Origin: Verrucomicrobia bacterium LW23 | Lineage (GTDB): Bacteria > Verrucomicrobiota > Verrucomicrobiia > Methylacidiphilales > UBA1321 | Assembly: GCA_003054695.1 (NCBI GenBank) | Contig: QAZA01000056.1 | Span: 310,001 to 374,000 of the forward strand | Direction of reading: 5' to 3' | Length of the DNA stretch: 64,000 bases | Shown here: piece after piece, positions 48,380 to 60,763 of the stretch | Numbering within the stretch: the stretch's first letter is position 1 | Layout of the letters: each line of letters opens with the position of its first letter | Position numbers and translations under genes: made by a program | Notes under the pieces: model-generated | What the model was told of the DNA's origin: nothing | The model's input: only the letters and a program-made list of their open reading frames with translations | The model's database searches: none

Positions 48380-48393
48380 CTGCTGTCTTAGGT

Positions 48394-48541
48394 GCTGTCG
48401 ACATTCACCCTCTAAGAGTTAGTGAAACGCCAACTCCCCTTTCCCCCGTAGAGTACGCTACGGGGGACGAGATACGGAAAGGGCCAATCAAGGCGTTTGC
48501 TCAACTGACCACAGATGACGAGGGAAATGAATGTCGACAGC
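48394..48541. repeat. palindromic element A (GTCGAC-bounded)
   Basis: A 148-base element is bounded by GCTGTCGACATTC and its exact inverse GAATGTCGACAGC. Inside are nested complementary arms: AAACGCC/GGCGTTT, CCCTTTCC/GGAAAGGG and CCCCGTAG/CTACGGGG, so the whole can fold into one long hairpin. No gene is inside. It looks like a small non-coding mobile or regulatory palindrome. Confidence 0.7.
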
Positions 48542-48585
48542 CTATTCTCCTAAGCCAGAAATACGTATCATTAGCCTGCTACCCC

Positions 48586-48715
48586 TTCCGTTCCGCCCCT
48601 TTGTGTCTTCGTGTCTTTGTGGTTAAATAATCCCCATTCCCATTTTCGCAGAGAAGCAGAGGGGAGGGGGAACATTAACCACAAAGACACAAAGACACAA
48701 AGGGGCGGAACGGAA
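48586..48715. repeat. palindromic element C, 41-bp arms
   Basis: Arms of 41 bases (48586-48626 and 48675-48715) pair with one mismatch around a 48-base loop. They carry the ACACAAAG-type core. The similarity continues outward, more loosely, to the GTCGACAGCC at 48534-48543 and GGCTGTCGAC at 48750-48759, so this element is framed by the same boundary motif in the opposite sense as its neighbours A and B. Confidence 0.75.
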
Positions 48716-48749
48716 CTTATGATGCTTACTTCTGATTCAGGACAGTAGA

Positions 48750-48903
48750 GGCTGTCGACATTTCGGCGGTCTGCGGTTCCCTTTGGCGATCTTTCCGTCC
48801 TTGGCGTCAAAAATCTGTTGGATTGTATGGCGAGGGGATTTTTAACGCCAAGGACGGAAAGATCGCCAAGACTGAGAAGGGAATAGTTCGAATGTCGACA
48901 GCC
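48750..48903. repeat. palindromic element B (GTCGAC-bounded)
   Basis: A 154-base element is bounded by GGCTGTCGACATT and AATGTCGACAGCC. Inner arms of 33 bases (48783-48815 and 48837-48869) pair with one mismatch around a 21-base loop. Its sequence differs from A and C except at the boundaries. From 48904 to 49226 nothing else is recognised. Confidence 0.75.
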
Positions 48904-49226
48904 TCTGGAGCATCTTCCAGATAGCTTGTCGCGAATTTGCCAGGCTCCGAGAACGGCGGAGCCGTTCCATACCACAGCTCGGGGTTGCCCGGCGCACTCT
49001 GATGCGAGGACTACGCCGGGTAGATCGGAACCAGGAACCCCCACGCTACGCGTTCTTCCGTCGGACCCTTCGCGCTCGTTCCTCGCGCGTGCGTTGTTCA
49101 GAGCCACCGAGAGTGCCTCGCACATGCACTAAACGAGCGCGAGTGGATCGCGCGCTTGCTTGCTTGCGTCTTTGCGTTGCCTGTGATATCAGCAAGTTGC
49201 AATAGCAGCAGCATCTTGCAAACGGT

Positions 49227-60301: not shown

Positions 60302-60763
60302 AGGCGGGAGCGATGCGTTTGGTTTTTCGCGCAAAGGACGCACAGGGCGCGAAGGACGCAAAGGGGGGAGTATATATACAGGACTCTTTTCCCTCCGCTC
60401 TATCCCCACTTAGGGGCTTCGTCCCCCTTAGCGCGAAACTATCCCCTCCGTTTCAGAGGGGGAATATTTCGCGCTAAGGGGGACGAAGCCGCTAAGTGGG
60501 GATAAAGGAGAGGGGAGAGTGAGGGAAAGGAAGCGGTCTGCTTAGGTTGTGGTATATTCCCTGTTGAAGTCCCCTTCCGCGCCAAACTGGCACGCGGGAG
60601 TGTGTCATTATGGCGCGGTGAGGCGCGTGGATTTCAGGTTTCCGCTATGCCAAAACGGCTCAAATCGGGGGGGGATTGATTTCTCGCGAATTTAAAGCGC
60701 TGCGCATCAATCATTTGCCGAACTTGCAGGAAATGTGGCCCTTTTCCTGCGAGGTTAGGATGT
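60302..60763. other. intergenic region upstream of dnaK with palindrome E
   Basis: This holds palindrome E, AAGGACGC-type short repeats at 60330-60366 and the dnaK leader. I looked for a CIRCE heat-shock operator (TTAGCACTC-N9-GAGTGCTAA) and saw none, so dnaK may use a heat-shock sigma factor or another repressor. Confidence 0.45.
60401..60504. repeat. palindromic element E, 38-bp arms
   Basis: Arms at 60401-60438 and 60467-60504 pair with one mismatch; the loop itself forms a smaller CCCCTC/GAGGGG hairpin. Looser complementarity extends outward. It has no coding content and lies between yjbQ and dnaK. Confidence 0.75.

Follow-up and report, generated by a model that had tools for sequence, protein, structure and literature searches.

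The window is the whole stretch of 64,000 nucleotides that was analysed, contig C56:310001-374000 of the 6.6-Mb genome of Verrucomicrobia bacterium LW23, which is assembled in 56 contigs. An array of short repeated elements, designated A, C and B in order from left to right, lies here in an intergenic gap between two ORFs of the forward strand (Table 1). The flanking genes were called paralogous in the preliminary description; they do share some likeness, which is weak (29% over 69 aa, E=3e-7). The same description noted four copies of a GTCGAC boundary motif in alternating sense. These copies are borne out at 48393-48404 (-), 48531-48542 (+), 48750-48761 (-) and 48892-48903 (+), and their number is far above chance, as 0.23 copies per window are expected at 1 mismatch and four copies are never reached in shuffled sequence. 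The array extends rightwards past B, where at least two more repeat families are found. Elsewhere in the window, positions 60395-60517 hold a further member of the CCCCACTTAGCGGCTT palindrome family.

Table 1. Positions of the array elements, their junctions and the flanking ORFs in the window.
Feature	Position	Strand	Remarks
Upstream flanking ORF, 250 aa	47627..48379	+	No Pfam or NCBIfam match
TA target dinucleotide, left of A	48388..48389		Left flank CTTAGGTGCTGTCGACATT; alignment with family pattern YTA + GAGGCTGTCGACATT
Element A, GTCGAC-family MITE, about 153 bp	48390..48542		Ends partly decayed, GGTGCTGTCGACATT ... AATGTCGACAGCC
Left TIR of A	48391..48405	-
Right TIR of A	48530..48542	+	Terminal TC absent before TA 48543-48544
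Element C, separate palindromic MITE family	48543..48747		Ends CTAGTSTCCTRARTCAGAARTA; arms 48586-48626 / 48675-48715 (41 bp)
TA at C/B junction	48746..48747		In C copies lacking B, unrelated DNA follows this TA
Element B, GTCGAC-family MITE, 158 bp	48748..48905		Complete 15-bp TIRs GAGGCTGTCGACATT ... AATGTCGACAGCCTC
Inner 33-bp hairpin of B	48783-48815 / 48837-48869
TG right of B	48906..48907		Read as a decayed TA duplication; paralogous L075 site has a single TA, B absent
Third repeat family, start (GAGCATTTTCCAGATAGC...), adjoining B	48908..48967
Further genome repeat, same intergenic gap	49040..49150
Downstream flanking ORF, 241 aa	49227..49952	+	DUF4412 (PF14371)

The three elements differ in symmetry. 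The term near-perfect palindrome, used at the outset for all three, is apt for B (33-bp arms, 97%) and C (41-bp arms, 98%). By contrast, the palindromy of A is moderate, with good pairing only at the ends and in small inner hairpins. The fold z-scores are -8.3 for A, -9.0 for B and -14.6 for C.

The GTCGAC family was surveyed by pattern searches and in fetched stretches of the genome (the L-numbered loci). The motif AATGTCGACAGC has 112 exact copies in the host genome (56+56 in 6.6 Mb), while the reversed-pattern control has 0. A genome-wide search for the motif with its inverse copies, as the preliminary description had proposed, thus yields 112 copies and 37 two-ended elements, and the view that the motif occurs nowhere else and the region is a simple duplication clearly fails. 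The two-ended elements are 101-305 bp in length, too small by far to encode a transposase. By content they form five classes of 16, 14, 3, 2 and 2 elements, with essentially the ends alone in common, and these unrelated contents behind one TIR account for the shared ends and different contents seen in the window. Element A has two further copies with both ends, L041 and L049 (149 bp), and 10 further copies of B were aligned. A and B are members of one MITE family defined by the 15-bp TIR GAGGCTGTCGACATT. Its elements are short, multi-copy and non-coding, and they have TIRs, a target duplication and a TIR in common with an IS. When up to 1 mismatch to the 15-mer AATGTCGACAGCCTC is allowed, the host genome has 138 ends and each of 59 relatives 0-2; thus, the expansion of the GTCGAC family is specific to this lineage. 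Plasmid-borne copies are absent from PLSDB.

The extent of the TIR and the target site can be read from the flanks. Outwards of AATGTCGACAGCC, the bases at 133 distinct ends are T (117), C (114), T (102) and A (97), followed by R (G or A, 113). The fixed TC is part of the element and the TA is the duplicated target, hence the TIR of 15 bp. The target is YTAR, most often CTAG, a tetramer that is rare in the host genome, at 0.27 per kb over 400 kb sampled. The same dinucleotide is present on both sides in 19 of the 38 elements with both flanks (TA/TA in 17 of the 38), while in the other half of the two-ended copies the flanking dinucleotides are decayed or mismatched. A 4-bp (CTAG) duplication was considered and rejected: the left and right 4-mers agree in 7 of 38 elements only, and the C that precedes the TA is fixed, in contrast to the variable base that follows, a pattern that a TA duplication with a 15-bp TIR fits better. 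At outer position 8, four bases past the A of the TA, 75 of the 133 GTCGAC-family ends carry a C, which suggests an extended target of the form GNNYTARNNC.

Element C stands apart. All three elements had been thought to share the GTCGAC boundary, which is so for A and B but not for C, whose stand-alone copies begin CTAGTCTCC..., end ...GGACACTAG and have no GTCGAC. These copies start CTAGTCTCCTAAGTCAGAAATA and end TTCTGATTCAGGACACTAG within unrelated flanks (e.g., contigs C50:323493 and C2:24407). C represents a second family of MITEs, with ends distinct from those of the GTCGAC family, and its GTCGAC borders in the window are supplied by its neighbours, A with its right end and B with its left end. 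Within the phylum, the inner CACAAAGACACAAAG module of C is found, besides its own genome, in only one of 195, and a literature search on NHKDTKTQR, the peptide encoded by this module, gave no match. In two copies of C (L047 1472-1675 and L058 1502-1663), the hairpin loop is in the reverse orientation with respect to the outer ends, as though arm-to-arm recombination had turned it around. Another copy (L185 ~2046-2189, contig C45:382 kb) has its left arm turned into about 10 GTGGCTTC units.

The ends of the GTCGAC family are also those of a transposon. An IS5-family transposase gene is directly bounded by AATGTCGACAGCCTCTAG at contigs C10 and C41. In the C10 copy (283200-283887), the gene product ends YDKLASSFLSFVLIAASMLWLK; the C41 protein, represented by the C-terminal half only, matches NF033580 (IS5 family) at 124.2 bits (cut-off 110) and also PF01609. 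The assembly holds no complete IS copy or intact transposase, as the C10 copy includes a run of Ns and the C41 copy is disrupted. The latter (L062 1900-2700), judged by eye from its translation, is apparently interrupted by an rve (integrase-type) transposase-like ORF. Nine right ends of this IS are found, mostly breaking contigs. Matches of IS end to contig end at C11, C13, C18, C22, C23, C25, C39 and C45 span 58-63 bases at 100% identity, as is expected where assembly stops at an element that is repeated and was recently active. None of the 37 two-ended MITEs has contents similar to the IS interior. Because the MITE TIR is that of an IS5-family IS in the same genome, a likely mobiliser can be named. 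The preliminary description had advised a search for a trans-acting transposase; the same-TIR IS, the TA duplications and the empty-site parallels described below support one, which would mobilise the MITEs in trans.

The nearest database relatives of the transposase fragment share 41-43% identity over residues 6-128, and related ISs of Caulobacterales, about 845 bp long, end TGAATGTCGATTCGNCCTAG, a related TIR at CTAG. IS427-group elements of Paracoccus are 832-865 bp in length, with IRs of 13-21 bp and mostly a 2-bp DR (PMC3281130). Like this group of the IS5 family, the partner IS has a 15-bp TIR, a 2-bp TA duplication and an IS5-family transposase. Members of the group measure ~830-865 bp and have two overlapping ORFs with a frameshift; the one copy of the partner IS that has both ends, at C10, includes the run of Ns. 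Judged from its sequence, it probably works as the IS427 group does and is termed IS427-group-like, a group assignment based on incomplete copies.

Evidence for insertion comes from sites that lack single elements. The joined flanks of B match L075 (contig C20) over 81 bp, ungapped, across a single TA with B absent; at this TA, a C-type end and the following repeat (GAGCATTTTCCAGATAGC) meet. This "empty site" is paralogous and could instead be an independently formed junction. At L120 (contig C50:258.1 kb), a B-type element is interrupted by a 252-bp GTCGAC MITE that is flanked by duplicated TT; the empty version of the site is supplied by many B copies. All of these empty-site comparisons are paralogous; the relatives belong to other genera, in which the flanking protein is 26-36% identical. 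The suggestion in the preliminary description that such boxes insert beside each other finds support in the common TIR, the TA duplications, the empty-site parallels and the same-TIR IS.

The locus is very probably a nested MITE array, in which A and B were moved by the resident IS5-family (IS427-group-like) transposase and inserted at TA beside C. The copies, the TIR, the TA flanks, the same-TIR IS and the empty-site parallels are seen in the sequence, and from them the mobilisation in trans, the order of insertion and target regeneration as the cause of clustering are inferred. The IS5-family transposase would move A and B in trans and would insert them at YTAR, often CTAG, with duplication of the TA. 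C belongs to a different MITE family, whose own ends lie at CTAG. A would have entered at, or next to, the terminal TA on the left of C, and B at the one on the right, where a further repeat starts. The TIR starts GAG and ends CTC beside the TA, so that YTAG and CTAR are recreated at the borders. Each insertion would be bordered by YTAG at one end and by CTAR at the opposite end, both again preferred targets, and the array could grow side by side.

Other origins of the array can be weighed against insertion at TA. Site-specific recombination of the tyrosine or serine type, acting at GTCGAC to swap the contents of cassettes with shared borders, would suit the common borders around five unrelated content classes. 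The junctions, however, lie at TA outside the 15-bp repeat and not within the motif, a 2-bp target duplication is present, exactly these ends occur on an IS5 transposase gene, and C itself lacks GTCGAC; a mechanism recombining at GTCGAC, one of two proposed from the window, is not supported and has hardly any probability. Simple duplication of one element was rejected, as the contents are unrelated and C is of another family. The array might also have spread mainly by segmental duplication or ectopic recombination, with A-C-B or C-B blocks copied as units. A second C-B pair (contig C45:327701-328057, 96% identity) and a remnant of the A/C junction with the start of B (contig C45:381.6-382.4 kb) indicate that pieces of the array were also copied, or formed repeatedly. 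As the main route, block copying is unlikely, since the majority of A-, B- and C-type copies are solitary, in unrelated surroundings and in many cases with TA flanks of their own, and the empty-site parallels are single-element steps.

The hairpins could alternatively be conserved RNA or DNA regulatory structures (terminators, mRNA stabilisers) that are retained for function, as their folds are very stable (z of -8 to -15) and their position is intergenic. Against this, the copies that bear them decay independently of one another. Across 11 B copies, the hairpin pairs are retained in 92% of cells, and 3 paired changes are found compared to 1.7 in shuffles, a level reached by 104 of 500 shuffles; this weak covariation leaves an RNA role unsupported. 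The hairpins have no match in Rfam, and their retention for function is a quite improbable explanation. A regulatory role is reported for other MITEs (PMC3733652), and by analogy one is possible for the GTCGAC MITEs, while no result here requires it.

The nested MITE array is a known kind of arrangement to which this family is new; no earlier record of this particular GTCGAC MITE family was found. Bacterial MITEs moved by a resident IS (PMC10969869; RUP, NEMIS, Nezha and Chunjie) are likewise short, TIR-bounded and multi-copy, with a target duplication and a same-TIR IS. By comparison, the GTCGAC family has a different TIR and five unrelated interiors, and it often adjoins other MITE families. 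REP/REPIN elements, palindromes of 20-40 bp tagged GTAG or CGTC at one end and associated with a RAYT transposase (PMC3733652), are likewise intergenic palindromic repeats. The GTCGAC MITEs are far longer (101-305 bp), with a TIR and TA duplication, and have a DDE instead of a RAYT tyrosine transposase; thus, REP/REPIN identity is ruled out by size, TIR and transposase.

The GTCGAC ends are frequently found next to other repeats. Of 136 ends, 20 adjoin a terminus that belongs to a different repeat family; the contact is precisely at the TA in nearly all of them and within 1-2 bases in the rest. Termini of other families with TA make up ~29 of 1,475 YTAR sites (~2%) in a 464-kb sample. Abutment is thus roughly 7x the simple expectation, a rough figure, as the families were partly recognised from these same flanks and some arrays are copies. 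Several MITE families of this genome may, as a tentative reading, land preferentially on one another's TA/CTAG termini by way of a target-regenerating TIR. At least five other palindromic families (TAGACCAATTCGCACAG, CCCCACTTAGCGGCTTTGT, CCGAGAACCTCGAAGAGGTT, GTGCATCGGCAAGGATC and GAGCATTTTCCAGATAGC) are noted in the contig C45:1-400000 sample (L166-L185) and the window, and repeat stretches in all cover ~6.6 kb of 464 kb. An IS5 gene at L064 was considered as the partner of the GAGCATTTTCC family and set aside, as a matching end was not found.

The partner IS explains many of the contig breaks of the draft assembly. The locus is a clean case in which a bacterial genome combines one IS end with several unrelated interiors, and it also displays MITE-in-MITE stacking at TA. 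If MITE families do land on one another's termini, intergenic gaps would be growing hubs in which different families are stacked end to end, and target regeneration, if true, would offer a simple reason for the clusters of palindromes in intergenic DNA.
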